From the IMG/VR virus record IMGVR_UViG_3300027796_000251, positions 1 through 24,357 of that record: DNA of 24,357 bases; one strand, 5' to 3'. This stretch comes from a virus. The notes beneath the pieces are model-generated. The model worked only from the letters and a program-made list of their open reading frames with translations, did not search any database and was not told where the DNA came from. Made by a program: the position numbers and the translations under genes. Every line of letters starts with the position of its first letter. Position 1 is the stretch's first letter. Positions 6,513 to 22,645 of this stretch are shown here, piece by piece.

Positions 6513-7140
6513 ACAGAAATTTATTTCAAAAAATTACTCCAAAGGCGTGGTAATCACACTAAAATATATTGTTGTTCATGAAACGGGAAATACCGCCGCC
6601 GGTGCAAATGCGGACGCGCATTATACCTATTGGAACACGAATGAATATGCTAATGCCAGCGCGCATTTTGTCGTGGATGATTCGAAAATTCTTCAGTTGC
6701 TGCCGCTGGACGCGAAAGCGTGGCATGTTGGGGACAACAAAGGGCACAGCGATATTACGAACAATAATGCCATCGGAGTCGAGATTTGCGTGAATTCTGA
6801 TGGGGATTATATGCGGGCACGGCAGAACGCGATTGAACTGGTACGGTATCTGCTGAAAATAACCGGCCTTTCCCCGGACAGGGTTGTAACGCACAACGAC
6901 GCCAGCGGCAAGTGGTGTCCGGCGATTATGCTGTCGCAGAATTTATGGGAGGATTTTAAAATTCGGATACGGGAAACGGAAGAATTGACTGACCCGAACG
7001 ATATTGCATGGGAGTATGGAAATAGAGGTATTGTAACAGATGTTGATGGATTTAAAGCGGAAATGGAGCGCAGCCCGGCCGGCCGGCTGTACTGGCTGGC
7101 AAGGAAAACCCTTCAATTTTTTAAGGAACATGATGTGTAG
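6499..7140 (+). CDS. N-acetylmuramoyl-L-alanine amidase endolysin (amidase_2)
   Basis: A 213-aa protein. GGGGAGG at 6483-6489 is best spaced from ATG 6499; in-frame ATGs at 6481 and 6490 are too close or upstream of it. Residues 21-31 (LKYIVVHETGN) give the first zinc ligand H27, SAHFVVDD (H56) is the usual second strand, GVEICVN carries E95, and THNDASGKWCP provides H132 and C140. This is the complete H/H/C zinc set of T7-lysozyme-like amidases, which cut the bond between MurNAc and the stem peptide. The last about 50 residues ('WEYGNRGIVTDVDGF', 'GRLYWLARKTLQFF') form a short helical tail also seen in clostridial phage amidases, possibly wall-binding. It overlaps the holin gene and ends the lysis module. 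Confidence 0.93.
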   Translation: MLPVEQKFISKNYSKGVVITLKYIVVHETGNTAAGANADAHYTYWNTNEYANASAHFVVDDSKILQLLPLDAKAWHVGDNKGHSDITNNNAIGVEICVNSDGDYMRARQNAIELVRYLLKITGLSPDRVVTHNDASGKWCPAIMLSQNLWEDFKIRIRETEELTDPNDIAWEYGNRGIVTDVDGFKAEMERSPAGRLYWLARKTLQFFKEHDV

Positions 7141-7153
7141 GGAGTGATGAGCT

Positions 7154-7582
7154 TTGACTCAGGATGAAAAGGATAGAATAATTCAGATGCGTACGGATAG
7201 CATGAGTTATGCAAAGATAGCGTTAATTATTGGCATTTCGGAAAATACAATTAAATCATTTTGCAGGCGCAATAACATAAACATTGCACCCAAAACTGTG
7301 TATGAAGAAATCAGGGGAATTCATACTGTATGCAGGCAATGCGGGAAACCTTTAACGCACACTGCAAAAGGACAGCCTAAGAAGTTCTGTTCAGATGCAT
7401 GCCGGCGAATGTGGTGGAAGGCGAATGAAAACCTGCTGAATAAAAAGGCATATTATATGCTAACCTGCGCCGGATGCGGCACTGAGTTCCAAAGCTACGG
7501 CAACCGGAACAGAAAATTCTGCGGTCATCCGTGCTTTATAAAAAACCGGTTTCAGAAAGGGGCGGACGGGCATGACGCATGA
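7154..7582 (+). CDS. HTH protein with two zinc ribbons (sigma-70-like / recombinase-associated family)
   Basis: A 142-aa protein, TTG start at 7154 after GGGAGTGA (7140-7147). Residues 1-42 form a helix-turn-helix like the C-terminal region of sigma-70 or resolvases ('MSYAKIALIIGISENTIKSF'). Two tetra-cysteine clusters follow: C60, C63, C79, C83 and C105, C108, C123, C127, with 'KKFCSDACRRMWW' and 'RKFCGHPCFIKNRF' as the second halves. Proteins of this type are commonly annotated as sigma-70-like in clostridial mobile elements and sit upstream of a SHOCT-like small gene and large serine recombinases, as here. It overlaps the next gene by 11 nt. The regulatory role is inferred; sigma activity is not supported because only an HTH is present. 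Confidence 0.7.
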   Translation: MTQDEKDRIIQMRTDSMSYAKIALIIGISENTIKSFCRRNNINIAPKTVYEEIRGIHTVCRQCGKPLTHTAKGQPKKFCSDACRRMWWKANENLLNKKAYYMLTCAGCGTEFQSYGNRNRKFCGHPCFIKNRFQKGADGHDA

Positions 7583-8945: not shown

Positions 8946-8970
8946 TATCCGCGATAAAATGGTTGTCAGA

Positions 8971-9049
8971 TTGATACAATTCTTTCCGCAGGACACGCCG
9001 TATAAACGGCACAATGCACATTGAATGTATCAATATAGTATGCTAATAT
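8971..9049 (+). promoter_or_regulatory. Recombinase operon promoter overlapped by dyad-symmetric sequence
   Basis: TTGAAT (9021-9026), a 17-nt spacer ending in TGC, and TAATAT (9044-9049) form an extended -10 promoter whose transcript would start about 16 nt before the recombinase ATG. TTGATACAATTC (8971-8982) is inverted as GAATGTATCAA (9023-9033), and an inner hairpin GCCGT-ATAA-ACGGC (8997-9010) lies almost exactly at the centre. The right arm covers the -35 and spacer, so a protein bound there should control the promoter. Confidence 0.55.
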
Positions 9050-9072
9050 GGTGATTGAAGGGAAGTGGTTTT

Positions 9073-10269
9073 ATGGAACGGATTATAAGGAAAATGCCGC
9101 CGTCAGCGCCGGTAATACCAAAGAAACTGCGGGTGGCAGCCTATGCCAGAGTGTCGACAGGGAAAGAGGCGATGGTGCATTCCCTGTCAGCGCAGGTCAG
9201 CTATTACAGCGAAATGATACAGAACCGTCCCGGATGGCTGTATTGCGGTGTGTATGCTGATTATGCGGTTACGGGAACAAAACAGGAACGGCCGGAGTTT
9301 CAGCGGATGCTTGCGGATTGCAGATCCGGAAAAATAGATATGATACTCACAAAATCTATCTCACGCTTTGCGCGGAACAGTGTTGATCTGCTTGAAACTG
9401 TCCGGGAACTGAAAAACCTTGGCATTGACTGTTATTTTGAAAAAGAAAATATTAATAGTATAAGCGGGGATGGGGAGTTGATGCTCTCCATCCTCGCTTC
9501 ATTTGCGCAGGAGGAAAGCCTGTCGGTCAGTGAGAACTGCACCTGGCGGATACGGAATAAATATAAAGATGGGATTCCCAATACCTTCACCATTCTGGGG
9601 TATGATGTGAAAAAAGGCGCTTTAACAGTTAACCCCGAAGAAGCGAAAATTGTTAAAATGATATTTGCGGATTATCTAAGCGGGATGGGAAAAACGGCAA
9701 TTGTCAAAAAGCTCCACGAATCGGGGGTAAGGCCGAAACTGAACGGGGAGTGGGATAGCCGGAAAATCCATGACATCCTATGTAACGAGAAGTACGCGGG
9801 AGATCTGTTGATGCAGAAAGGATATATAAGCGACCACCTTACTAAGAAAAACAGGAAAAACAACGGCGAGCTGCCGCAATATCTGGTGAAAGACAACCAT
9901 GAACCGATTATTGACAGAGGAGCCTTTGAAAAGGCACAAAAAGAAATGGCCAGGCGTGCCGGACAGTATCATCCAAGGTCAGACATTACAGCAAAGTATC
10001 CATTTACAGGAAAAATTGTGTGCGGCATATGCGGTAAACACTACAGGCGGAAAATCAATAATTCCGGTACGAAATATGAAAGGGTAATATGGGTATGCTC
10101 AACCTACAACACGTTGGGGAAAAGCTACTGCGCGTCAAAGCAGATTCCTGAAAGTATCCTGCAAAGCCTGACGGAGGGGTTAAAGGTGTACAGAATAGTT
10201 GCATATCCAGATAAAACGTTGAAAATGATTTTAGAGGATAATACTGAATTAATGAGGGAGTGGGAGTAA
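9073..10269 (+). CDS. Large serine recombinase, short form
   Basis: A 398-aa protein; ATG 9073 follows AAGGGA at 9057-9062. Residues 20-29 (RVAAYARVST) contain the nucleophile S28 of the resolvase catalytic domain. 'LTKSISRFARNSVDLLETV' carries the catalytic arginine, and 'ILASFAQEESLSVSENCTW' is the long helix E region. The recombinase domain follows (GYDVKKGALTVNPEEAKIVK), then a zinc ribbon from C317 (CGICGKHYRR ... VCSTYNTLGKSYC). The protein stops soon after, lacking the roughly 130-residue coiled-coil tail of the next gene. Large serine recombinases integrate and excise phage or element DNA through att sites. Because only 2 nt separate it from the second recombinase, the two probably work together. 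Absence of the coiled coil, which controls directionality in phiC31-type enzymes, is notable. Confidence 0.93.
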   Translation: MERIIRKMPPSAPVIPKKLRVAAYARVSTGKEAMVHSLSAQVSYYSEMIQNRPGWLYCGVYADYAVTGTKQERPEFQRMLADCRSGKIDMILTKSISRFARNSVDLLETVRELKNLGIDCYFEKENINSISGDGELMLSILASFAQEESLSVSENCTWRIRNKYKDGIPNTFTILGYDVKKGALTVNPEEAKIVKMIFADYLSGMGKTAIVKKLHESGVRPKLNGEWDSRKIHDILCNEKYAGDLLMQKGYISDHLTKKNRKNNGELPQYLVKDNHEPIIDRGAFEKAQKEMARRAGQYHPRSDITAKYPFTGKIVCGICGKHYRRKINNSGTKYERVIWVCSTYNTLGKSYCASKQIPESILQSLTEGLKVYRIVAYPDKTLKMILEDNTELMREWE

Positions 10270-10271
10270 GC

Positions 10272-11858
10272 ATGAACAGACAGGTTACAGTGATTCCGGC
10301 CGTTATGCCGCGGTTCTTAAACAAAAAAACATTGATCCTGAAAAAACGCGTAGCGGCGTATGCCAGAGTTTCAACCGATTTTGAGGAACAGCTGTCCAGC
10401 TATGAGGCACAGGTGGATTATTACACAAGGCATATCCAGTCCAATGAAAACTGGCAGTTTGTGCAGGTATACACCGATGAGGGAATAAGCGCGACGAGTA
10501 CCAAGCGGCGTGACGGGTTTAACAAAATGATAGCCGACGCCATGGACGGGGAAATCGACCTTATTATTACAAAGTCGGTCAGCCGTTTCGCTCGTAATAC
10601 TGTTGATACGTTGACCACTGTGCGTAAGCTGAAGGACAAAGGGGTGGAGGTATATTTTGAGAAGGAGTCAATATTTACTCTTGACAGCAAGGGCGAACTG
10701 CTGATTACCATCATGTCCAGCCTTGCGCAGGAGGAAAGCAGGTCAATTTCAGAGAATGTCACGTGGGGAATGAGGAAGCGGTTCGCGGACGGAAAGGTCA
10801 GCCTGCCCTATAAACATTTTCTCGGATATAAAAAAGGGGAAAACGGCCTGCCGGAAATTGTGGAGAAGGAAGCGGAAACGGTACGGCTTATATACAGGAT
10901 GTTTCTGGAAAACAAGACCTGTGGGGCAATAGCAAGGTATTTGGTAGACAGGGAAGTACCAACGCCGACAGGAAAGCAAAGCTGGAATCCGGCGACGGTA
11001 CGAAGCGTTTTGAAAAATGAGAAGTATATGGGCTCAGCAATACTGCAGAAAACCTATACCATAGATTTTCTGACCAAAAAGAAAAAAGTGAATGAGGGTG
11101 AAATCCAGCAGTTTTATGTAGAAAATTCTCATCCGGCAATTGTGTCCTCTGAGGTATTCGACATGGTGCAGTATGAGTTTCAGAAGCGGAAATCTGCCAA
11201 AGGTTATATGACGGGACACAGTCCGTTTTCGGGCAGAATCGTCTGCGGACAGTGCGGGGGATTTTACGGCAGCAAGGTCTGGCATTCCAACAGCAAATAT
11301 CGACGGGTGATCTGGCAGTGTAACCACAAATTTACGAATCAGGAGAAATGCAGAACCTCGCACCTTTATGAAGAGGACATTAAAAAGGCTTTCGTGAACG
11401 CAGTAAACCGGATGATAGTGAACAAAAAAGATATACTGCGGGAATACGATGGAATCGTTGACAGACTGACGGATACGTCACCACTTGACAGGGAGGACGA
11501 TAAACTGCGGGAGGAACTGGAAACGGTCACAGCACTTCTACGCGGCTGTGTGGATGAAAATGCGCGTTCGGCACTGAATCAAACTGAATATACCCAAAAA
11601 TATTCGGAGCTGAAAGACCGGTTTGACAGGATTCATACGGATATCGCCGCCGTCAGTAGTAAGAGGATGGAGTATGCCGCAAAGCGGCAGGCTATCACAG
11701 AATTTATACAGTCGCTGCAGAAGCAGGAGGGACTGATTACTGAATTTGACGAGGAACTCTGGAACACTGCGGTGGAAAAAGCGGTAGTGGATATGTCCAA
11801 TGGAATAACATTTGTCTTTAAGGACGGCAGTGAGATATGCGGTGAAAAGATAGTATAA
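10272..11858 (+). CDS. Large serine recombinase, full-length
   Basis: A 528-aa protein; ATG 10272 with GGGAG (10262-10266) in the end of the first recombinase gene. The catalytic domain has S34 in VAAYARVSTD and 'ITKSVSRFARNTVDTLTTV'. The recombinase domain includes 'GYKKGENGLPEIVEKEAETV' and 'NPATVRSVLKNEKYMGSAIL'. The zinc ribbon begins at C325 (CGQCGGFYGSKVWH ... WQCNHKF ... C). Residues about 395-490 are highly charged and helical (REDDKLREELETVTALLRGC and following), the coiled-coil element that mediates synapsis in this family. The pair resembles the multi-recombinase cassettes found in Firmicutes prophages and integrative elements. It is the likeliest integrase of the neighbouring prophage. 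Confidence 0.95.
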   Translation: MNRQVTVIPAVMPRFLNKKTLILKKRVAAYARVSTDFEEQLSSYEAQVDYYTRHIQSNENWQFVQVYTDEGISATSTKRRDGFNKMIADAMDGEIDLIITKSVSRFARNTVDTLTTVRKLKDKGVEVYFEKESIFTLDSKGELLITIMSSLAQEESRSISENVTWGMRKRFADGKVSLPYKHFLGYKKGENGLPEIVEKEAETVRLIYRMFLENKTCGAIARYLVDREVPTPTGKQSWNPATVRSVLKNEKYMGSAILQKTYTIDFLTKKKKVNEGEIQQFYVENSHPAIVSSEVFDMVQYEFQKRKSAKGYMTGHSPFSGRIVCGQCGGFYGSKVWHSNSKYRRVIWQCNHKFTNQEKCRTSHLYEEDIKKAFVNAVNRMIVNKKDILREYDGIVDRLTDTSPLDREDDKLREELETVTALLRGCVDENARSALNQTEYTQKYSELKDRFDRIHTDIAAVSSKRMEYAAKRQAITEFIQSLQKQEGLITEFDEELWNTAVEKAVVDMSNGITFVFKDGSEICGEKIV

Positions 11859-11878
11859 AACTAGAGAATTGAATAGGC

Positions 11879-11908
11879 AGGGAGATATCATACGGTGTCT
11901 CCCTTTTT
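11879..11908 (+). terminator. Rho-independent terminator of the recombinase operon
   Basis: AGGGAGATAT (11879-11888) pairs with GTGTCTCCCT (11895-11904), with two G-U pairs, around a 6-nt loop. The stem is followed by TTTT to 11908. It begins 20 nt after the second recombinase stop codon. Confidence 0.85.
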
Positions 11909-11947
11909 GGTATAAAAAATAATAATATATTGATGGGAGCGGTGGAT

Positions 11948-12865
11948 ATGGCGGTATTCAGAGTAGAAAAAGTGGCGGATTATACGGTGATGTCGAACCA
12001 TCACCTGAAAAATATACGTTTGTCTCTTAGGGCGAAGGGACTCCTATCACTTATGCTGTCACTTCCTGAGAATTGGGATTATACCCTCAAAGGGCTGGCT
12101 CGTATCAGCCTTGAAAGCGTGGACGCTATCCGGAAAGCGCTGCAGGAGCTGGAGACGGAAGGGTATGTTGTCAGGAGCAGAATTAGGAATGCGAAGGGCC
12201 AGCTGACGGATGCGGAATATGTGATTTATGAAAAGCCTGTACATAATACGCCCGAGCCGGATGAAACGACAGAGAAACAGCCTATACAGGAAAAGCCTAT
12301 GCAGGCGGAACCTGTGTTGGAAAAACCTATGTTGGAAAAACCTATGTTGGAAAAACCAATATTGGAGAAGCCTGTGTTGGAAAATCCAACGCAATTAAAT
12401 ATATATAATAATAAAATATATAATAAATTAAATACTAATCTATCAAGTACTAATCTATCAAATCCTATCCCATCCAATCCTGAGGAGTGGAAAGGATCGG
12501 ATGGGATTGCGAAGAGAGAACACTACAGGTCTGTCATTTTAGAGAATATCGGCTATGAGGTTTTATGTGAGCGTGAAAGCAAGGAACGTCTGGATGAAAT
12601 TGCGGAACTGATGCTTGATACAGTCTGTACCGCCAGAAAAACTGTCCGTATTGCCGGAGACGATTATCCTGCCGATGTTGTGCGATCAAGGCTGCTTAAA
12701 ATCACCAGTATGCACATTGAGTATGTTTTTGACGCACTGAAAAGCAGCACTACCCGCGTGAGAAATATCCGGCAGTATCTGCTTGCTGCCTTGTTCAATG
12801 CACCGTCTACCATGGATAATTATTACGCCGCACAGGTCAACCATGATCTTTACGGCACACAATAG
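11948..12865 (+). CDS. Winged-helix replication-initiator-like protein with DUF6017-like C-terminus
   Basis: A 305-aa protein. ATG 11948 is preceded by GGGAGCGGTGG; an earlier TTG/ATG in frame is less well placed. Residues 1-95 form a helix-turn-helix/winged-helix domain (NHHLKNIRLSLRAKGLLSLM, then 'NWDYTLKGLARISLESVDAI' and 'LETEGYVVRSRIRN'), typical of replication initiator or DnaD-like proteins of Firmicutes elements. Residues about 110-155 are Pro/Glu repeats (LEKPM-type, 5-aa period). A Ser/Asn-rich low-complexity linker follows. The C-terminal about 115 residues (VILENIGYEVLCERESKERL ... IRQYLLAALFNAP) resemble DUF6017. The architecture is typical of initiators on integrative elements and plasmids. 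It stands alone here: no ParA or relaxase gene follows, which suggests an element remnant or rearranged end. Confidence 0.8.
   Translation: MAVFRVEKVADYTVMSNHHLKNIRLSLRAKGLLSLMLSLPENWDYTLKGLARISLESVDAIRKALQELETEGYVVRSRIRNAKGQLTDAEYVIYEKPVHNTPEPDETTEKQPIQEKPMQAEPVLEKPMLEKPMLEKPILEKPVLENPTQLNIYNNKIYNKLNTNLSSTNLSNPIPSNPEEWKGSDGIAKREHYRSVILENIGYEVLCERESKERLDEIAELMLDTVCTARKTVRIAGDDYPADVVRSRLLKITSMHIEYVFDALKSSTTRVRNIRQYLLAALFNAPSTMDNYYAAQVNHDLYGTQ
12287..12391 (+). repeat. 15-bp tandem repeat within the initiator-like gene
   Basis: Seven consecutive 15-bp units: two degenerate (CAGGAAAAGCCTATG and CAGGCGGAACCTGTG) and five based on TTGGAAAAACCTATG, of which the first two are identical. They encode pentapeptide units of the form LEKPM/I/V. 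Because 15 is a multiple of three, slippage changes linker length without breaking the frame. Confidence 0.9.
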
Positions 12866-12893
12866 ACATAAACACTAAAATTTGAGAAAAATA

Positions 12894-12922
12894 TTGCAAA
12901 ATGTTGGATATTGTGCTATAAT
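12894..12922 (+). promoter_or_regulatory. Strong extended -10 promoter at the left edge of the defence island
   Basis: TTGCAA (12894-12899), a 17-nt spacer and TATAAT (12917-12922), with TG one base before the -10. This is near consensus for the vegetative sigma factor. It lies about 210 nt before the first start codon downstream (13132), so the transcript would have a leader of about 200 nt, in which I see no confident known riboswitch or open reading frame. Confidence 0.75.
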
Positions 12923-13131
12923 AAAACATAAACAACTTTTCTGTAAAACCTAATCGTCTTTGAAAAAAATGAATAAGTGTGGCTGGAGCCCTGAGATATC
13001 GGTTATGATGCAAAGTAATATAGAGGACAGGCATAGTTAATATTGCTGGGCAGCGTATCGTTCAGTAAAATGTCTGATTAAAGCAATAATGGGATTTTTG
13101 TATAAACAAAATTAAGGGAAAGGAAATATCT

Positions 13132-13380
13132 ATGAACGCTATTGTGAGAAGAGTTAATTATAAACGTGGATTAGTTGTATTTGAAAGTAATAGTTGTGAT
13201 TGTGGTTGGTTTGAAATTTTAGATACAGTAGACATAGAATTAAATGATGAATTATTAGGAAATTTTAATGAGTTGGGTGGAACAACAATAATTAAAAAAA
13301 GTACAGGTGAGAAAATAGAAGTCTTTATAGAAGATTATGGAATGTCATATAAAAAAGCAGTTGAAATGATATATAGATAA
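13132..13380 (+). CDS. Hypothetical small beta-rich protein
   Basis: An 82-aa protein; ATG 13132 follows AAGGGAAAGG. It begins MNAIVRRVNYKRGLVVFESN and is mostly beta strand with a short C-terminal helix (MSYKKAVEMIYR). The layout 'a.V..v...rGl.vf....cd.gwFEi...vdIelnDel.Gn....G.t.i....tgekIeV.ied' suggests a five-strand OB-like barrel, but I know no named family. The coding sequence is visibly richer in A and T than the upstream prophage genes, and it is the first gene behind the strong promoter. It is followed by 112 nt of non-coding sequence before the membrane protein gene, so co-transcription is plausible. Confidence 0.6.
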   Translation: MNAIVRRVNYKRGLVVFESNSCDCGWFEILDTVDIELNDELLGNFNELGGTTIIKKSTGEKIEVFIEDYGMSYKKAVEMIYR

Positions 13381-13492
13381 TTATGAGGCGGTTTGAGGAT
13401 GCTTTGCAATAAAAGTTTATATAGTAGCAATTGTAGGAATTCAAAGAGGGTAAAATTAAATTTCAAATTCTTTATCGAAACGAAGTGAAAAT

Positions 13493-14758
13493 ATGTTTTA
13501 CAAATACATTAAGGAAGCCAAACAGCTTAAGGATAGAATTTCATCATTAGAAAAAGACCTTTCTATAATATCACATACATTTAGTGTGAAAAAGTACGAT
13601 GAAAATTCAAAGTCTTTTATAGATTGCATAGATGAAGATGCCTATGATAATAAAAACACTGAATTAAGTAAAAATGAACTACTATTAGGTATACTTAAGT
13701 TTAAAATATACTTCATGACAAAAAAGCGTGTACAAGAAATAATGAGTAGTTATATCGCTTGCCTTAACAAAAAGATAGACTGGCTGAAAACAGAGAGAAC
13801 AATTAAAACAAAGAGTGGAAAATGGATATTAGATTATAGAAAAATACATGAAATGGAAAGGTATATAAAGTCGGAATCAGATTATTTTCAAAGGATCATT
13901 GATGGAAAGGCAGGGTGGATTGTATCTGTGGGATGTTATATGAAAAAAAACAGAAAAGTGATAATTGGCATTTTATTATTCTTTATTCTCTCACCCATAT
14001 GTGCTGGAATAATAGTATCAATTCCATCTTTTGATTGGTTAATAACGAAAGACAATGACTGGATTGGCTTTTGGGGAAATTACATTGGAGGGATTATCGG
14101 AGCTATCATTGGAGGAGTTGTAGCATATAAAGTGGCAGAATATGGATTTAAGAGTCAAAGAGAATTGGATAGACAAGTAAAAACTACGGAATTAATGATT
14201 AACAATCTTCCAAGATTTATCGCAGTAGTTTTGGGAGTGCAGCAAAAATTACTATTGAGTAGAGAATACATCTTTCATACATACAAAACCTTGAAAGAAG
14301 AATATAAGGCCCAAGATGAAAAAAAGAGAGTTGAATTCGAGTCAATATATGAAGATATTACACGTTCCCAATCGGTAATTGAAAAAAATCGTATAGAAAT
14401 ATATGATTATCTCGAAAAATATCAAGTTGAAAATGAAATAAGCCGCTTCCTTGTTAATAAATATCAAAATTCAATTGTTTCAACATATGATCAGATGCTG
14501 AAGTTATTACGTGAAACAGATAAATTTGAAACTCTTTTTACTATGTGCAATAAAAAAGTGTTATCCGATAACGTACAAATTGACTTTAATGGGTTTGATA
14601 AAGAATTGCATCAACTTGATAATTCTTTCAAAGGAGTAGATTATTCGCTGTATTTAATAATTACATTATTGAGAAATGAAATATCTTCAGAATTGGGGTT
14701 AACAACCCTTGCAGCCGAAGAAAAGGAAGATTATATCAACCAGCGATTTACGAGCTAA
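13493..14758 (+). CDS. Two-TM coiled-coil membrane protein, defence-island type
   Basis: A 421-aa, AT-rich gene. ATG 13493 has only a weak SD (GAAGTGA, 13481-13487). The first about 155 residues are charged and helical with coiled-coil character (YIKEAKQLKDRISSLEKDLS). Two adjacent hydrophobic segments follow: about 163-183 (VIIGILLFFILSPICAGIIV) and about 198-216 (NYIGGIIGAIIGGVVAYKVA), separated by DNDWIGFWGN. The remaining 200 residues are again helical and cytoplasmic in appearance. The 'DWIGFWGNYIGG' box directly before the second membrane segment is a recurring feature of uncharacterised membrane proteins found next to phage-defence genes. No enzymatic motif is visible. Role as a membrane-acting defence component is inferred from context. 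Confidence 0.65.
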   Translation: MFYKYIKEAKQLKDRISSLEKDLSIISHTFSVKKYDENSKSFIDCIDEDAYDNKNTELSKNELLLGILKFKIYFMTKKRVQEIMSSYIACLNKKIDWLKTERTIKTKSGKWILDYRKIHEMERYIKSESDYFQRIIDGKAGWIVSVGCYMKKNRKVIIGILLFFILSPICAGIIVSIPSFDWLITKDNDWIGFWGNYIGGIIGAIIGGVVAYKVAEYGFKSQRELDRQVKTTELMINNLPRFIAVVLGVQQKLLLSREYIFHTYKTLKEEYKAQDEKKRVEFESIYEDITRSQSVIEKNRIEIYDYLEKYQVENEISRFLVNKYQNSIVSTYDQMLKLLRETDKFETLFTMCNKKVLSDNVQIDFNGFDKELHQLDNSFKGVDYSLYLIITLLRNEISSELGLTTLAAEEKEDYINQRFTS

Positions 14759-14837
14759 TTGCTGATAATTATTTTACTTAATAATATATATAAACATAAT
14801 ATATTATTCAATTTTGTTTTGCCTAGGGGTGTACAAA

Positions 14838-15010
14838 GGGAAAACGAGCTGGATGAATTCATCGCCTATATAAAAAATTTGCCGGTTTTGAACGAAGAAT
14901 TATCTGCGGTGATTGAGCGCGATAAAAAAGAACTGAGCGGTGAACCAAAGAGACCTGAACTTCCGGTTAAATCAATCCAGCATTCATCTCAATTTTGCTG
15001 CTGTCCTTAA
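14838..15010 (+). pseudogene. Possible gene remnant
   Basis: The 373 nt between the membrane protein and the HTH gene (14759-15131) contain one stretch that reads like real protein, starting 'ENELDEFIAYIKNLPVLNEE' and continuing 'LSAVIERDKKELSGEPKRPE'. It has no usable start codon or ribosome binding site, the N-terminal side merges into AT-rich non-coding DNA, and the end ('HSSQFCCCP') looks out of frame. Its base composition is less AT-rich than the flanks. I interpret it as the truncated end of a lost gene; no family recognised. The rest of the gap holds only the promoter at 15065. Confidence 0.3.
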
Positions 15011-15064
15011 ACTTTTTGATTCCACGTGAAATTACGCCAATTCATATTTATTTTTGTTTAACCA

Positions 15065-15093
15065 TTGTATTTCGCATCGAGATATGTTATAAT
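15065..15093 (+). promoter_or_regulatory. Extended -10 promoter of the HTH-Mod-Res-AAA-S8 operon
   Basis: TTGTAT (15065-15070), a 17-nt spacer ending TG-T, and TATAAT (15088-15093). The predicted start of transcription is about 40 nt upstream of the HTH gene. No other comparable promoter is seen before the end of the protease gene, so this probably drives all five genes. Confidence 0.75.
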
Positions 15094-15140
15094 AGTTTAA
15101 ATGGAGTTAATATATCAGTTTATTAAAAGAGGTGTGTGAA

Positions 15141-15332
15141 TTGGCAATAGATAATGAGAAATGGGTTAGCCTTGAAGACATAGCCGATTATATAGGAGTA
15201 AATAAGGACACTATCCGTAACTGGATTAAGAAGGACGCTATTCCGGCACATCGAATCGGTCGGTTCTGGAAGTTCAAAAAGACGGAAATCGATGAATGGG
15301 TAGCCAGCGGTAAAAGCGCGGAAATAGTCTGA
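15141..15332 (+). CDS. Excisionase-family helix-turn-helix protein (HTH_17), operon regulator
   Basis: A 63-aa protein. AAAGAGG (15126-15132) is ideally spaced from TTG 15141; the GTG at 15132 overlaps the SD. The sequence reads NEKWVSLEDIADYIGVNKDT followed by 'IRNWIKKDAIPAHRIGRFWK' and 'FKKTEIDEWVASGK'. This is the full MerR/excisionase-type winged helix ('v.eiAdylgVs..TI..W.k...iPa.kiGr.wkFk..eid.Wv'). Small proteins like this head many restriction-modification and other defence operons, where they probably act as autoregulators rather than as recombination factors. There is no tyrosine recombinase nearby, which fits the regulatory reading. The gap of 79 nt to the methyltransferase holds a small ATGCC/GGCAT hairpin (15366-15381). 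Confidence 0.85.
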   Translation: MAIDNEKWVSLEDIADYIGVNKDTIRNWIKKDAIPAHRIGRFWKFKKTEIDEWVASGKSAEIV

Positions 15333-15411
15333 ATACAGCTAATCCTAAGAATAATAAGCTTAACCATGCCGCAATAGGCATATTCGATGTTATGAAAGAG
15401 GAGTAACCAAT

Positions 15412-17025
15412 ATGAACAGTTTGGAAAAAAGTAAGCAGGATTTAATCGCTGAGATTGACAAGCGCATTTCCGATAAGATTATTGAGCAGTCAAACGCTGA
15501 TTTATTAAAAAAATTAATCATTAACGCCGAGACTTTGACTGAGGCTGTAGATATCGCTAAACTCGGCACAACATATAAAAGAACGGGTTTCCATTTTGAT
15601 AAACGCAATGAAAAGATGGGTGATACAGTAAAATATTTTAAAAAGAACGATGTGTTGTCTTTCAGAACGAGCGAGGACGGCTTAACCCATAAGCTCATCG
15701 TTGGCGATAACTATGATGCCTTGCTTAATCTACTTATACAATACAGAGGCGCGGTAGATGTAATCTACATAGATCCTCCTTACGGAAAAGACAGTATGGG
15801 CGAGTTTGCACAGACGAATTATGATAACGCGATAACGAGGGACAATTTGTTGTCAATGCTTTATTCACGCCTTGTGCTTGCAAAGCAACTTCTTTCTGAT
15901 AGCGGCGTTATTTTTTGTAGTATAGATGATAGAAATCAAGCCTATGTTAAAGGTTTATTTGATGAAGTGTTTAGAGAAAGTAATTTTATTTCTTGTATAA
16001 CACGTGCAACTGGAACTCCGACAGGTGGCGGTTTCGACGGATTAGTAAACGAACTTGATTATATTCTTGCTTATGCAAAAGATAAACTCGATGTTACAAT
16101 TCAAGGCGTAACATTCAGTGAAAAAGATGCGATTATTTATAATTTGAAAGATGAAATTGGCAAATATCTTATTCGCCCATTGCGGAGAACAGGTGGCGAA
16201 GATAGGCGTGAAGATAGACCAACAATGTACTACGGCATAAACGCACCAGATGGAACTGAAGTTTTTCCTGTTGCTCCTTCTGGTTATGAAAGCCGTTGGA
16301 TTTGTGGCGAAAAGAAATATAAGGAATTGGTTGCAAATGGATTAATTGAATGGAAACAAGTCGAGAAAAACGGCGGCTTAGTTTGGCAAGTCTATCAAAA
16401 ATTTTATGTTGAAGATAGGAAAAAACAGCCAGGTAATTTGTGGACTGATGTTGAAGGAAATAAAAAAGCGACGCGAACCATGAGAGATATATTTAATGGC
16501 GAAAAAGTGTTTGATTTTCCAAAACCAGTTGGGCTGATAACAAAGATTCTTGAAATTGCAAGCAATTCAGATTCAATCATTCTCGACTTCTTTGCTGGCT
16601 CTGGCACAACAGGGCAAGCTGTCCTTGAACTAAACAAAGCGGACGGCGGCAAACGACAGTTTATTCTTGCCCAGCTAAACGAAATAACCAATACTACTCC
16701 AAATGGCGTGGTGCTTGACGTTACAAGCAAACGCTTAAAACGGGTTATGACAGGCTCTTGCTATGATGGCACAAAAGATTTTAGGTGGCTTGATAATAAC
16801 ACTCCGCTTGGAGATAACCTTGATGTTTATGATATTGCTACCGTTAACCCTTGTGAAACGAGTAAAGGTCAAACTCCGTTTGATGTAATTGACGAAACAC
16901 TCTACGGTCAGGCTCCGCTCGCTGTTACTGACAAAATCAAATGGGTATGCGAGAACTTCGACGGTACGCAAAAGAAGGTTGAAACTGACGGCGAATATAA
17001 AAGGCGTATAGGAGGCGAAGGATAA
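15412..17025 (+). CDS. mod: Type III-like site-specific DNA-methyltransferase (Mod), beta class
   Basis: A 537-aa protein; ATG 15412 with AGAGGAG 8 nt upstream. DPPY (D121-Y124, in VIYIDPPYGKDS) is the catalytic motif IV, and FAGSGTT (394-400, in ILDFFAGSGTTGQAV) is the S-adenosylmethionine-binding motif I. The order DPPY before FAGSG defines the beta class, as in type III Mod proteins that make N6-methyladenine on one strand of an asymmetric site. The stretch between about 200 and 370 (from ITRATGTPTGGGFDGLVNEL to the 'PGNLWTDVEGNKKATRTMRD' region) is the probable target-recognition domain. The gene ends directly at the start of the helicase gene. Both catalytic motifs are intact, so it should be active. 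The recognition sequence cannot be read from the protein. Confidence 0.93.
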   Translation: MNSLEKSKQDLIAEIDKRISDKIIEQSNADLLKKLIINAETLTEAVDIAKLGTTYKRTGFHFDKRNEKMGDTVKYFKKNDVLSFRTSEDGLTHKLIVGDNYDALLNLLIQYRGAVDVIYIDPPYGKDSMGEFAQTNYDNAITRDNLLSMLYSRLVLAKQLLSDSGVIFCSIDDRNQAYVKGLFDEVFRESNFISCITRATGTPTGGGFDGLVNELDYILAYAKDKLDVTIQGVTFSEKDAIIYNLKDEIGKYLIRPLRRTGGEDRREDRPTMYYGINAPDGTEVFPVAPSGYESRWICGEKKYKELVANGLIEWKQVEKNGGLVWQVYQKFYVEDRKKQPGNLWTDVEGNKKATRTMRDIFNGEKVFDFPKPVGLITKILEIASNSDSIILDFFAGSGTTGQAVLELNKADGGKRQFILAQLNEITNTTPNGVVLDVTSKRLKRVMTGSCYDGTKDFRWLDNNTPLGDNLDVYDIATVNPCETSKGQTPFDVIDETLYGQAPLAVTDKIKWVCENFDGTQKKVETDGEYKRRIGGEG

Positions 17026-19161
17026 ATGCTGCAAGAAGCAAAAGACCTCCAAAACGCCGCCGTAACCCGTCTTGTTGACCTAACCCACACGCTGGACGAA
17101 ATCACATTTAAAGCCCCGACCGGTAGTGGCAAAACCTATATGATGGCAGATATGATGAATCGCATTCTCTCCGAAGATGAGGATGTTGTTTTCCTTGTCT
17201 CTACACTTTCAAAAGGTGACCTCGCAACGCAGAACTACGAGAAGTTTTTGGAGTATTCCTCAAAAGGCGATTTTACGGAGTTAAACCCCTACCTCATATC
17301 AAGCCAAATCGCCGGAGAAGAACGGCTCTTCGTGCCGACGGTTCACAATGTTTATCTGTTGCCGCGAGACCTTTATAAAAAAGGTGGTCGGCTTATGCAG
17401 GGAGCGATGGAAAGCTTTTTGCAAAATATAACTTCAGATGAATGGTTCGGAGGACTGGGACAAAAAGTTTACCTGATAAAAGACGAGTGCCATATTGCGA
17501 CAAACAACCTTGACAGCCTGTCAGACAAGTATTTTGATAAAGTCTATAACTTTTCCGCTACGCCGAAGCTTTCTCGCGGTCAGAATCCTGATGTCGAGAT
17601 AAAAAACGATGATGCGGTTGCTGCAAAACTTATTAAAGATATTGAGCTTATTGATGATGCAAATGTAAAAGTCGCTGATGCAATTTGCAAGTTTGAAGAG
17701 ATAAAGGCTGACTATCGTAATTTTCTCGGTGTTAATCCCTGCCTGATTATCCAAATATCGAATAAAGATAAAGCCGAGGAAGAACTGCGGGAAATTTATG
17801 CGGAATTAGACAAAGCGGAGCATCTTGATTTGAAATGGATGTTGATTGTAAATGACGATAAAGAGTGTGATACAAACGATACCTTTAAGGCGAAAAAGCT
17901 CCCGGTCAGCAAGTGGAAAGATTATGCTAAAGAGAACCTTTCTACAATTGACATTATCATCTTCAAAATGGTCATAACCGAAGGCTGGGATATTCCCCGT
18001 GCCTGTATGCTTTATCAAATGAGAGATAGTAAAAGTAAGCAGTTAGATGAACAGGTCATGGGACGCGTTCGTCGTAATCCACGCTTGCTTGATTTTGAAC
18101 GGTTATCAGACGAAGCACAGACGCTCGCTATGACTTCGTGGATTTGGGGAATCATTCCTGAAGAGTTGAAGAAAGCGTTCGCTGTTAAACTTCAGCAGGA
18201 CAGCCACTTTATAACCGATGAGATTAAGATAAAAATCACACGATTGAACTCGTTAGGCAAGAAAGCTTCATTTGACCTTGCAGCGTTTCTTTGCGATCAG
18301 CCTGTTGTGAGTGCGCCGACAAGTATTTTCCAGCTCTACTCCGCTTTCAAAAAAGCGGATAACGGCGTTCAGACCATGTGCGATACCTACTCCACCGATT
18401 ATTCCAAATGGCGCGAGTTTACCGAGAATATTGAAGCAGTTCAGAAAGAAAACAATCTGCATATCTGCAATTACGCCATCAGCATGGAAGTGACAAAAGA
18501 CGAAGAGGGGAACGATTTAGAAGTTTCGTTTGCACTCGCTTCGCACTATACAGACAACGGGAATTATATCAACATCACAGATTGGGTATGGAAGCGAGCG
18601 GACGGAAAAGAAAGGTTCTCATTCGACAGTGATGCTGAGCGTAAATGGACTGAAATACTAAAAGACCTTACGCGAGAAGACAGTGCTTCCGGTGAAAGAG
18701 TCGGCAAACGGGTTAAAGTTGGTAAAAAAAATCCTATGGCTGGGCAGACCGACTTATTTGGAGAAGTTCAGCCTGAATTTCTTGATGAAAAAAACATTTA
18801 TCTGTGGGGAAAGAACTATGTACCTAACTCGTCGATAAAGTTTGAGTATTATCTGGGTGCCTTACACTCTTCTTATCCAGACTTTGTTATGAAGGACTGT
18901 TATGATCGCATTCATATTTTTGAGGTTAAGAGCGTTAATATTTCCTCAAATATGGTAGGTGGCTTCGATAACAACATATACAAAACTAAGCTGGAGGAAT
19001 TGAAAAGGGCTTATAAGCAAGCATCAAAAATTACCGAACAAATTTTTTATCTGCCGATTTTGCGAGATGAGGTTTGGCGTATATTTCAGTATGTCAACGG
19101 AACCGAAAGCATTTTTACAAAAGATCAGTTCCTGAGCTTTTGTAAAAAGAAGCCGGTATAA
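17026..19161 (+). CDS. res: Type III-like restriction subunit: DEAD/DEAH helicase with C-terminal nuclease (Res)
   Basis: A 711-aa protein whose ATG follows the Mod stop codon without a gap; GGAGGCGAAGG (17010-17020) is its ribosome binding site. Walker A is APTGSGKT (30-37), Walker B is DECH (in VYLIKDECHIAT), motif III is SAT (NFSATPK), and the C-terminal helicase motif is QVMGRVRRNPR. Near the C-terminus, 'SYPDFVMKDCYDRIHIFEVK' shows the D...EVK arrangement of a PD-(D/E)XK nuclease. Type III Res proteins of the EcoP15I group are near 970 aa; this one is compact, but the start is well supported and all motifs are present, so I do not consider it truncated. It would act with Mod as an ATP-dependent restriction complex. 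Confidence 0.9.
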   Translation: MLQEAKDLQNAAVTRLVDLTHTLDEITFKAPTGSGKTYMMADMMNRILSEDEDVVFLVSTLSKGDLATQNYEKFLEYSSKGDFTELNPYLISSQIAGEERLFVPTVHNVYLLPRDLYKKGGRLMQGAMESFLQNITSDEWFGGLGQKVYLIKDECHIATNNLDSLSDKYFDKVYNFSATPKLSRGQNPDVEIKNDDAVAAKLIKDIELIDDANVKVADAICKFEEIKADYRNFLGVNPCLIIQISNKDKAEEELREIYAELDKAEHLDLKWMLIVNDDKECDTNDTFKAKKLPVSKWKDYAKENLSTIDIIIFKMVITEGWDIPRACMLYQMRDSKSKQLDEQVMGRVRRNPRLLDFERLSDEAQTLAMTSWIWGIIPEELKKAFAVKLQQDSHFITDEIKIKITRLNSLGKKASFDLAAFLCDQPVVSAPTSIFQLYSAFKKADNGVQTMCDTYSTDYSKWREFTENIEAVQKENNLHICNYAISMEVTKDEEGNDLEVSFALASHYTDNGNYINITDWVWKRADGKERFSFDSDAERKWTEILKDLTREDSASGERVGKRVKVGKKNPMAGQTDLFGEVQPEFLDEKNIYLWGKNYVPNSSIKFEYYLGALHSSYPDFVMKDCYDRIHIFEVKSVNISSNMVGGFDNNIYKTKLEELKRAYKQASKITEQIFYLPILRDEVWRIFQYVNGTESIFTKDQFLSFCKKKPV

Positions 19162-19181: not shown

Positions 19182-20150
19182 ATGGCTACTTCTGAGCAAC
19201 TTATAACTTTATTAACGGCACATTATGACGGCGATAATGAGCGGCTTAAAACGGTAGCCTTACAGATAGCTGCTCACGAGGCAAAGATTGGGCATACCGT
19301 GCTTGCTCAGTCAATTAAAGACCTTGTAATGAAGCGGAGTGCAACAGGTGCTATTATTAATCGAATTGCACCTATTGATAATAGCTTAATCATAAAAAAG
19401 ACAACAAAAAATCGCATAAGTGATCTTATTGTATCTGCAAAGCTTAGTAAACAAATTGATAATATCATTTTGGAATTTGCTCAACGCTCAAAGTTGAACA
19501 AAAATGGCTACTTTAACCGTAGAAAGATTTTATTAGAAGGCTTACCGGGAACAGGCAAGACGCTTACTGCTTCTATTTTTGCGAACGAATTGAAGCTTCC
19601 CCTTTATGTGGTGCAATCAGACAAGTTGATAAGTAAATTCATGGGCGAAACAGGAGCTAAACTTCGTCAGATTTTTGATGTTATTTCACAGCAGATAGGA
19701 ATTTATTTCTTTGATGAATTTGACTCAATAGGTTCAGAACGTGCATCGGATAATGATGTAAAAGAGATGCATCGCGTTCTAAATCTCTTTTTACAGTTTA
19801 TAGAGCAAGATACTTCAGAAAGTATTATTATTGCGGCAACAAACAGCGGTAATCTTTTAGACCAAGCGTTATTCCGTCGTTTCGATGATGTTTTACGATT
19901 TGAGCTTCCAGAGGAAGATGAAATAGAAAAGCTCTTAAAACTGAAACTGAGCAATTTTGCGGCAAAAAAACTAATCACAAAAGATATTATCGAATTGTCT
20001 GTAGGACTGTGCCACGCAGATATAACGAAAGCCTCTGAAAATGCGATTAAACAAGCGATATTGACTGACAAAAAGCAAGTGTCTCCCGATGTGTTGAAGG
20101 AAATGCTTGAAGAAAGAAAGAATGTGTATCAGTCAAAGGAGGGTAAATAA
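19182..20150 (+). CDS. AAA+ ATPase, IetA-like
   Basis: A 322-aa protein, ATG 19182 with AAGGAGAG 20 nt after the Res stop. Residues 1-110 are helical and would be a partner-binding region. The AAA+ core follows: Walker A GLPGTGKT (120-127), Walker B IYFFDEFD (174-181), sensor 1 IIAATN (216-221), arginine-finger segment FRRFDD (231-236) and a small helical lid (GLCHADITKASENAIKQAIL). This is the classical FtsH/katanin-like AAA module. An AAA+ ATPase immediately upstream of a subtilisin-like protease is the ietAS arrangement, described as a stability toxin-antitoxin pair on an Agrobacterium Ti plasmid, with the ATPase as the protective partner, and as an anti-phage defence pair. The stop overlaps the protease start by one base (TAATG), so production is coupled. 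Confidence 0.85.
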   Translation: MATSEQLITLLTAHYDGDNERLKTVALQIAAHEAKIGHTVLAQSIKDLVMKRSATGAIINRIAPIDNSLIIKKTTKNRISDLIVSAKLSKQIDNIILEFAQRSKLNKNGYFNRRKILLEGLPGTGKTLTASIFANELKLPLYVVQSDKLISKFMGETGAKLRQIFDVISQQIGIYFFDEFDSIGSERASDNDVKEMHRVLNLFLQFIEQDTSESIIIAATNSGNLLDQALFRRFDDVLRFELPEEDEIEKLLKLKLSNFAAKKLITKDIIELSVGLCHADITKASENAIKQAILTDKKQVSPDVLKEMLEERKNVYQSKEGK

Positions 20151-22645
20151 TGCCACGATTTGATAATATCTTTTTGACCGATACAGGAACAGCGGTTGAT
20201 TTCACTTCTGCTCCCCAAAGGGGAGGAGCAGCTACTATCCCTACGCGTTCAAACAGACGAACACACAGTAATGCTCTGCTTGCTCAATTTCAAAATGCCC
20301 AACAACATTTTCAGAATTACACGCCAGAACAAGTAGCCGCAATATCATATAACACAGGCACCTACATAGAGTTCTCGAGTGCAACTAATTGCGATTTGAT
20401 TACCAAGAGTTTAGAGAACATTCGACAAGGGATAAAGCTTCTTAATGTTCGTGACATTGTTACACAGGATGATACTGGGGCGAATGTCGTAACGACAAAA
20501 GCTACGGTATTTATTCCATCTGGGAAAGAGCAAGTTTTTATTAAAAAGATAACCGAATTTGCCACGACTGATACCCTCTATGGCAAGCCAAAAAACAATG
20601 ATTTGGTAAGCAGTATCGAATCTATTTCAGATGCTTTAAAAATCAGTTCTTTTTGGGTGGGGCGTCCACAAGATATGCCTACAGATACTGCTTCGTGGTA
20701 TGAATTGTGGGTAGATATCAACGAGGACAATTTTGAAGTGATAAAAAATCAGGCTTTTAATATCCTTGACGAATTGCATGTTTCTCATTGTAATTCGGAC
20801 AATTGTATTCGTTTTCCTGAACGTTTGGTAATACTCGCTTTGGTAAATAGGACAAATCTACTTGATATAATTAAGCAAGGTACAACTATTGCCGAAATTA
20901 GAAAGCCGGCAGAACCAAACGCTTACTTCGTTGATTCTAATTTAGGTGAACAGACCGATTGGGCAAACGATTTACTTGCCCGGACACATTATACTGATAC
21001 AGGTGTAGCGGTTTGTGTTTTAGATACCGGCATTAACAGAAACCATTCTTTGATAACTCCATATATGCCCAATACAGGTATGACAGTAGAAACTTCATGG
21101 GGCATTGATGATAATATAGGACACGGTACAAATATGGCGGGTGTAATTTTATATAATGATTTACGCCGTTATTTGATTTCGAGCTCAACATTTAATCTCA
21201 GCCACTCAATTGAATCAGTAAAAATACTCGGTGCAACAGCCACAACTCCATCTTTGTATGGCGCAGTCACTGAAAATGCCGCTCTGCTTCCAGAAATATT
21301 ATCGCCTATAACTAAGCGAATTTACTGTATGGCAGTAACTGATCCTAAAAGCAGTTCAAATGACGGACAACCTTCTTCATGGTCTGGAGCTATAGATAAA
21401 ATTTCTTCAGATGGGCAAAAGCGTCTGTTTATCATTTCAGCAGGAAACGTTGACCTTTTTTATTTGCAAGCAAATGGGGGTTACCCAGATGCCTGCTTAA
21501 AGAAATCGGTTGAAGATCCATCACAAGCTTGGAATGCATTGACAGTTGGGGCATACTCTACTGATACAACCATTCCGGCAACGGTCTTGACAGCAGGATA
21601 TTCTGCTGTTGCTCAGGCAGATGAACTTTCGCCTTATAGCTCAACTTCTATAAGCTGGGGTTCACAATGGCCTGTTAAACCCGAACTCGTATGCGATGGC
21701 GGCAATGTCGCAACTGACGGAACAAATTTTACAGAGCATGATGAGCTATCAAAGCTAACATTACATAAAGACATTAGCAGAAGGCTATTTGATACGATAT
21801 GGGCTACAAGTGCCGCTACTGCACAATGCTCATATATTGCAGGAGAATTGTTTTCGGCATATCCTGATATGCATCCCGAAACTGTTCGAGCCTTACTCGT
21901 ACATTCTGCAAGATGGACGGATTCAATGAAATTACAATTCGGTTTTCCTGACTCAAAAACACAGGGTAGAAAAAAATTGCTAAGGACTTGCGGTTATGGA
22001 GTGCCCGATTTAGGCAGAGCAAAAGATACTCTTAATAATCGGGTAAATATGATTATCGAAAGCGAGATACAACCATACGAAAAGACCCCAAGCTCTGTGC
22101 CAAAAATGAAAGAAATGCATTTTCATACACTTCCATGGCCTGTAAATGTACTGCAAACATTGGAAAACACAAATGTAAAAGTTCGTGTTACTTTATCGTA
22201 TTTTATTGAGCCCGGACCCGGACAAAAAGGATGGAAGAATAAATACAGATATGCATCTTGTGGATTGCGTTTTGAAATTAAACGTCCTAATGAAACAGTT
22301 CAACAATTTCAACAACGCATTAATAAAGCGATGCGCGAAGATGATTATCAAAACACAAACACAACTGACAACAATTGGTATTTGGGTGAAAGAAACAGAG
22401 ATGTAGGTTCTATCCATTCTGATGTTTGGGAAGACACCGCAATTAACTTAGCTCAAAGCGATAGCATAGCGGTTTTTCCTGTTGTTGGGTGGTGGAGAGA
22501 ACGAACAAACCTTAAAAAGTATAATTCCCGAATTAGGTACTCGCTTGTCGTTTCGATTGAAACGCCAGAGGAGACGGCAGATTTATACACCACTATTATG
22601 ACTAAGATTGCAAGCAGAATCACAGTACCAATTACAACGCCATAG
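20150..22645 (+). CDS. Subtilisin-like S8 family serine protease, IetS-like
   Basis: An 831-aa protein, ATG 20150 sharing its A with the TAA of the ATPase gene; GGAGGG lies 8-12 nt upstream. The catalytic triad is complete: D292 in VAVCVLDTGINRNHS, H325 in NIGHGTNMAG, and S554 in WATSAATAQCSYIAG; the oxyanion-hole Asn is N433 in FIISAGN. There is no signal peptide or transmembrane segment, so it works in the cytoplasm. Residues 1-275 are a large N-terminal region without recognised motifs, and about 230 residues follow the protease domain ('HFHTLPWPVNVLQTLENTNV', 'LRFEIKRPNETVQQFQQRIN', 'RYSLVVSIETPEETADLY'), resembling the beta-rich tail of defence-associated S8 proteases. It is the probable toxic effector, restrained or directed by the AAA+ partner; that is inference from ietAS. 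Confidence 0.88.
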   Translation: MPRFDNIFLTDTGTAVDFTSAPQRGGAATIPTRSNRRTHSNALLAQFQNAQQHFQNYTPEQVAAISYNTGTYIEFSSATNCDLITKSLENIRQGIKLLNVRDIVTQDDTGANVVTTKATVFIPSGKEQVFIKKITEFATTDTLYGKPKNNDLVSSIESISDALKISSFWVGRPQDMPTDTASWYELWVDINEDNFEVIKNQAFNILDELHVSHCNSDNCIRFPERLVILALVNRTNLLDIIKQGTTIAEIRKPAEPNAYFVDSNLGEQTDWANDLLARTHYTDTGVAVCVLDTGINRNHSLITPYMPNTGMTVETSWGIDDNIGHGTNMAGVILYNDLRRYLISSSTFNLSHSIESVKILGATATTPSLYGAVTENAALLPEILSPITKRIYCMAVTDPKSSSNDGQPSSWSGAIDKISSDGQKRLFIISAGNVDLFYLQANGGYPDACLKKSVEDPSQAWNALTVGAYSTDTTIPATVLTAGYSAVAQADELSPYSSTSISWGSQWPVKPELVCDGGNVATDGTNFTEHDELSKLTLHKDISRRLFDTIWATSAATAQCSYIAGELFSAYPDMHPETVRALLVHSARWTDSMKLQFGFPDSKTQGRKKLLRTCGYGVPDLGRAKDTLNNRVNMIIESEIQPYEKTPSSVPKMKEMHFHTLPWPVNVLQTLENTNVKVRVTLSYFIEPGPGQKGWKNKYRYASCGLRFEIKRPNETVQQFQQRINKAMREDDYQNTNTTDNNWYLGERNRDVGSIHSDVWEDTAINLAQSDSIAVFPVVGWWRERTNLKKYNSRIRYSLVVSIETPEETADLYTTIMTKIASRITVPITTP

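Follow-up and report, generated by a model that had tools for sequence, protein, structure and literature searches.

A portable small gene and a membrane-hairpin gene behind the promoter of a mobile element: a candidate defence-associated cargo unit

The stretch of DNA analysed here, referred to as the window, comes from IMG/VR, where it is a virus record of 24,357 bases with no assigned host. Our best reading of its sequence, held tentatively, is that adjacent genes for an 82-aa and a 421-aa protein constitute a defence-associated cargo unit, in which a portable small gene is combined with a membrane effector that would act by membrane attack or abortive infection. The initial annotation had proposed the two genes as a candidate uncharacterised defence or abortive-infection pair. 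That interpretation is partly supported and now shifts to a portable, defence-linked small gene and a hairpin protein that stand behind the promoter of a mobile element.

Results

The two genes lie in an AT-rich stretch behind recombinase and rep genes

By reading, the gene order of the window opens with tail, holin and amidase-type genes, which are followed by two large serine recombinases, a DUF6017-family rep-like gene and then the two-gene unit. 3′ of the unit come an HTH gene, genes for a type III methylase and a helicase/nuclease, an IetA/IetS-like pair and then a transposase of the IS type that has an rve integrase core. Both ORFs occupy the positions given to them in the initial annotation and begin with ATG (Table 1). 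The 1866-bp stretch from 12894 has a GC content of 29.5% (26.5% in the small gene and 30.3% in the large gene), while the recombinase/rep stretch on one side has 44.5% and the HTH/RM stretch on the other 40.7%. The lowest value among other stretches of equal size, taken from starts more than 1866 bp from 12894, is 37.2%, which upholds the proposal that the composition is foreign to both neighbours. The two genes are separated by a 112-bp gap, which counts against tight coupling, and a scan of this gap found no terminator-like site.

Several features surround the unit. It is separated from the restriction genes by a further AT-rich stretch (14759–15131) that contains an 83-aa frame with a TTG start; this frame matches no known family and may be what is left of a gene. 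In the region 15132–19161, the HTH gene, which matches MAD1 below the cut-off (63.6 of 80 bits), is found directly 5′ of the type III methylase and res genes. The region 19182–22645 encodes an AAA ATPase and subtilase pair that resembles the IetAS defence system (PADLOC E values of 2.5e-66 and 1.6e-43) and scores below the NCBIfam cut-offs for the named system. The unit may sit inside a prophage or in host DNA just outside one; the sections of PMC11318856 considered here describe a clostridial prophage with recombinases at its end.

Table 1 Features of the two-gene region and its upstream DNA (window coordinates)
Feature	Position	Strand	Evidence or remarks
Sigma-70-like promoter, extended −10	12894–12922	+	Consensus scan; kept in the alignments to L006 and L007
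Untranslated leader of the backbone	12923–13045	+	Conserved in L007 5759–5876 (~120 nt)
DNA block common to window and G111	13104–13378	+	L168 8813–9089; RBS region and small gene only
82-aa ORF	13132–13380	+	ATG start
421-aa ORF	13493–14758	+	ATG start
421-aa two-TM hairpin protein	13493–14758	+	Hydropathy; phrog_16113; N- and C-terminal parts predicted mostly helical
First membrane segment, residues 153–184	13949–14044	+	Kyte-Doolittle, 19-residue windows above 1.6
DWIGFWGNYIGG box, residues 189–200	14057–14092	+	Conserved loop of the 2TM hairpin
Second membrane segment, residues 197–215, glycine-rich	14081–14137	+	Kyte-Doolittle

The promoter and leader belong to the upstream element

A near-consensus promoter had been proposed in front of the two genes. 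Such a site exists (TTGCAA-17-TATAAT), agreeing with the consensus at 10 of 12 positions and carrying TG before the −10 hexamer. The match alone says little because AT-rich DNA yields many, and the region contains 28 such sites versus 16.7 ± 4.0 in shuffles. The promoter is credible, rather, because it is kept 3′ of the same rep gene in L006 and L007, the two relatives of the rep gene among viral contigs, both of which come from one metagenome. L007 is 83% identical to the window across 8963–13045 and L006 is 88% identical across 11867–12930. The leader aligns to L007 with a score of 110 (500 shuffles gave a mean of 49, an sd of 5.9 and a maximum of 68), and the 85 bases that follow 13045 are without similarity to L007. 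Behind the leader, L007, whose genes are chromosomal in appearance by reading, carries a DUF6485 gene and two other ORFs. Behind the promoter, L006 has a candidate group II intron start at 7078–7165 (40.6 bits, E 2.4e-8, below the Rfam gathering score of 49). Because the promoter and leader are kept in related contigs while the DNA behind them varies, both belong to the recombinase/rep backbone. Thus, of the initial proposal the site itself stands, and its assignment as the unit's own promoter does not, since in L006 and L007 it is that of the upstream element.

The leader may act as a regulatory RNA or contribute to an attachment site; it has no match in Rfam and its single-sequence fold gives a z of −0.23. 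Matches to a 15-base leader pattern in 119 viral stretches were for the most part no more than chance would give, and among the loci examined the pattern is followed by GACAGGC only in L007, besides the window's own L003. Relatives of the rep gene in 63 of 391 class genomes were assigned to other elements, and the leader was absent 3′ of class-genome rep genes in the 5 of 20 loci whose downstream bases were read.

The 82-aa protein belongs to an unnamed and mobile small family

Comparison with an 86%-identical protein gives a dN/dS of 0.24 and comparison with a 52–53%-identical protein one of 0.28, so the 82-aa frame is a real gene under purifying selection. Judged by sequence, its product belongs to an unnamed small family: it has no accepted match in Pfam, PADLOC, NCBIfam or PHROGs, and a seven-row alignment of the family reveals a common pattern with six invariant columns. 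At E ≤ 1, no PADLOC family was matched by either the 82-aa or the 421-aa protein. The label OB-like, which the small protein had been given, was not confirmed, as its single-sequence structure model has a mean pLDDT of only 38.7. The PDB contains no sequence match at E ≤ 10, and a profile of the family retrieved only irrelevant PDB entries (E ≥ 1.2). Within the terms used, literature searches found no paper on the family.

A single-sequence search located relatives of the small gene in two of 391 class genomes, G111 and G257. In G111, an 86%-identical protein is encoded 201 bp 5′ of a bSEFIR gene (PADLOC E 4e-79), with a KAP/PDC-S20 gene (8e-73) and a HEPN_Cthe2314 gene (9.5e-23) nearby. The window and G111 have in common a DNA block of 277 columns with 88% identity, which starts 28 bp 5′ of the ATG and extends as far as the stop codon, and comparison of the flanks gave no other significant match. 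The small gene is mobile as a single gene. The G111 defence cluster (L168 5399–14547), which comprises KAP/PDC-S20, HEPN, bSEFIR and GHKL-ATPase genes, is positioned directly behind genes of the ribosomal-protein type, and a gene of the tyrosine-recombinase type diverges from the small gene (both by reading). In G257, a 53% relative is situated between hsdS and a 178-aa gene that is followed by hsdR, within a type I RM operon whose cluster also has a Fic gene (SoFic, E 9.6e-41). Order-level searches matched 1 of 22 and 1 of 95 genomes and added nothing beyond the G111 and G257 copies.

Searching 309 phylum genomes with a five-row profile produced five matches, two of them full-length and good (G551, E 8e-16; G510, E 1e-12). 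Both copies reside in prophages and adjoin terminase genes, and in G510 the gene before the small gene has a weak PDC-S50 match (E 2.2e-6). The remaining three (G526, G724 and G757; E 9e-4 to 3.5e-3) are partial matches in frames of 245–472 aa and were dropped. Two weak plasmid matches (E 6e-3 and 1e-2) come from Paraburkholderia, with DUF4145 as a neighbour, and Mesorhizobium, with AbiJ_NTD4 and DUF4238. Also dropped were six Rhodococcus phage matches (E ≥ 0.2), one of which, H1, falls inside a longer gene next to the portal, a Microvirga plasmid match (E 0.5) and a Natrinema match in a CoA transferase (E 3e-2). No relatives of the small family turned up in further viral scans, and the G551 copy, used as query, likewise found none among phages and plasmids.

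The defence or mobile context that had been anticipated for the small protein is where its four good outside relatives are found, one beside bSEFIR, one within a type I RM operon, and the other two next to prophage terminases. As a raw count, PADLOC-listed neighbours accompany three of the five good members (window, G111 and G257), those of the window itself being the type III RM genes and the IetAS-like pair, and the other two members are in prophages.

Relatives of the 421-aa protein match its membrane hairpin

Hydropathy bears out the two closely spaced membrane segments that had been noted in the 421-aa protein, and the DWIGFWGNYIGG box is present as well. The loop carries DNDWIGFWGN, of which NDWIGFWG is invariant in the window, L142, L143, L001 and L002, and the hairpin flanks are basic, so that, judged by sequence, the loop should face outwards. 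The Pfam glycine-zipper 2TM model gives a sub-threshold match to the second segment (E 0.095), phrog_16113 matches residues 149–225 (E 3e-9), and no Pfam, PADLOC or NCBIfam family covers the protein. The coiled coil assigned to it by the initial annotation was not confirmed; the structure model is mostly helical with a mean pLDDT of 45.9. Because the models of both proteins are poor, neither the OB fold nor the coiled coil is established.

Relatives of the 421-aa protein match only its 2TM hairpin. With profile A2, the hairpin was found in 11 of 391 class genomes, at 12 places, four of which have internal stops. It is also present in L001 and L002, which are loci of species genomes, and in two phage contigs, and the proteins that bear it vary in their cytoplasmic parts. 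The phage-borne copies in L127, L142 and L143 adjoin terminase. Those in L001 and L002 occupy plain chromosomal places just behind glyA (by reading), with no defence gene recognised around them. Homologues mostly outside defence or mobile contexts are thus not what the small protein has, whereas for the 2TM hairpin the picture is mixed. Matches in G245 and G056, which read as lying in a transporter-like gene and a plasmid-partition-side gene, were not taken as hairpin relatives. The slot just ahead of terminase holds hairpin proteins in L127, L142 and L143 and members of the small family in L180 and L181.

The arrangement in which a relative of the 82-aa gene is followed by one of the 421-aa gene was seen in no other locus read, and the two are therefore not a fixed pair, as had been suggested; the pairing was seen once. 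Nor were relatives of the pair as a unit present in the viral contigs, phages or plasmids searched.

Discussion

In the reading that we prefer, two genes with different histories would have come to lie 3′ of a recombinase/rep module in a prophage-like element and would be transcribed from the promoter of this module. Of the two products, the 421-aa protein would most likely be the effector. Its helical arms would lie in the cytoplasm, anchored by a hairpin of two helices, the conserved acidic/aromatic loop of which is predicted to face out and the glycine-rich second helix of which could pack into oligomers. Once infection is sensed, assembly of the 421-aa protein would depolarise the membrane or make it permeable, and the infection would be aborted. 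The 82-aa protein would be a small soluble partner, drawn from a family that appears to accompany many different effectors, and would either restrain the effector or help sense infection. Here we infer both the partnership of the two proteins and the joint transcription of their genes, and it is the neighbourhood and anatomy that point to pore or membrane action and abortive infection. The sections of PMC9122126 considered here attribute a presumed suicide-effector role to the transmembrane proteins of antiphage systems and place such systems in prophage hotspots next to conserved genes. According to the corresponding part of PMC3710099, HEPN/AbiJ families are found with R-M operons, which fits the mixed company that the small gene keeps. 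A broader proposal, which we consider unlikely, is that the 82-aa family is a portable general immunity partner, a single-gene module that travels by itself and fills one sensing or safety-catch role for unrelated effectors such as SEFIR proteins, restriction complexes, membrane hairpins and possibly AbiJ and DUF4145.

Close in likelihood to the unit reading, and itself quite possible, is that two independent cargo genes simply lie side by side, the small gene travelling alone and the 421-aa gene encoding a prophage-type membrane accessory, for example a superinfection-exclusion factor. The block common to the window and G111 does hold the small gene alone, the hairpin adjoins terminase elsewhere, and the small gene was found in 0 of 3 records that include L142 and L143, in a profile A6 search run without a positive control. 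Against independence, the two genes are on the same strand, have no terminator between them and match in composition, and the small gene of G551 also stands behind genes read as encoding membrane segments.

Two further explanations assign the small protein a different task, and we rate both as improbable. It might be a counter-defence or regulatory factor of phages and mobile elements, such as an anti-restriction protein, that moderates defence systems; two of its four good relatives are indeed in prophages by terminase and one is inside a type I RM operon, yet the G111 copy belongs to a chromosomal defence cluster with no recognisable phage, and the protein has no similarity to a named anti-restriction family in Pfam, PADLOC, NCBIfam or PHROGs. 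The least probable of the explanations is a toxin-antitoxin pair that stabilises the element, with the small protein neutralising a membrane-toxic 421-aa protein. The order of a small gene first and a larger membrane gene second would suit such a pair, as would the occurrence of one small-gene DNA block in front of different larger genes. Antitoxins, however, normally fit one toxin, whereas the small family adjoins unrelated proteins (SEFIR, HsdS/HsdR and the products of terminase-side genes).

Small genes in defence loci are easily overlooked. A family that relocates as a single gene and comes to stand beside effectors of unrelated kinds would flag defence units yet to be characterised, and would hint that effectors are sensed or restrained in a common way. 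More may be sought in the prophage slot by terminase, which the small family and the 2TM hairpin both occupy.

Comparison with known systems

PHROG 16113, a group of phage proteins with no function assigned, covers the hairpin of the 421-aa protein with positions 8–84 of its 258-position profile; the match stops after the hairpin and leaves the long arms of the 421-aa protein uncovered. PutAbiC (PF16872), which Pfam labels a putative phage abortive infection family, presumably resembles the 2TM loop of the 421-aa protein; it gave no match in this protein at E ≤ 1 and was found in 0 of the 4 genomes with 2TM relatives. The bSEFIR locus of G111 is similar to the window in that the gene for the 86%-identical small protein precedes an effector gene, and differs in that its effector is a SEFIR protein rather than a membrane-hairpin protein. 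Membrane effectors of abortive infection, among them the 2TM proteins Cap1 and Csx23 of type III CRISPR systems, likewise combine membrane helices with cytoplasmic parts and, in the portions of their descriptions considered here, have a proposed or shown membrane action. The likeness drawn is one of layout, and the 421-aa protein is without a recognised nucleotide-binding domain. Finally, the prophage antiviral hotspots of P2, P4 and others, as presented in the sections of PMC9122126 considered here, are small variable loci by conserved phage genes, some with TM proteins. Unlike those hotspots, the slot described here adjoins terminase, both in IMG/VR contigs and in prophages of class- and phylum-level relatives of G001, and the unit of the window is placed behind recombinase/rep genes.
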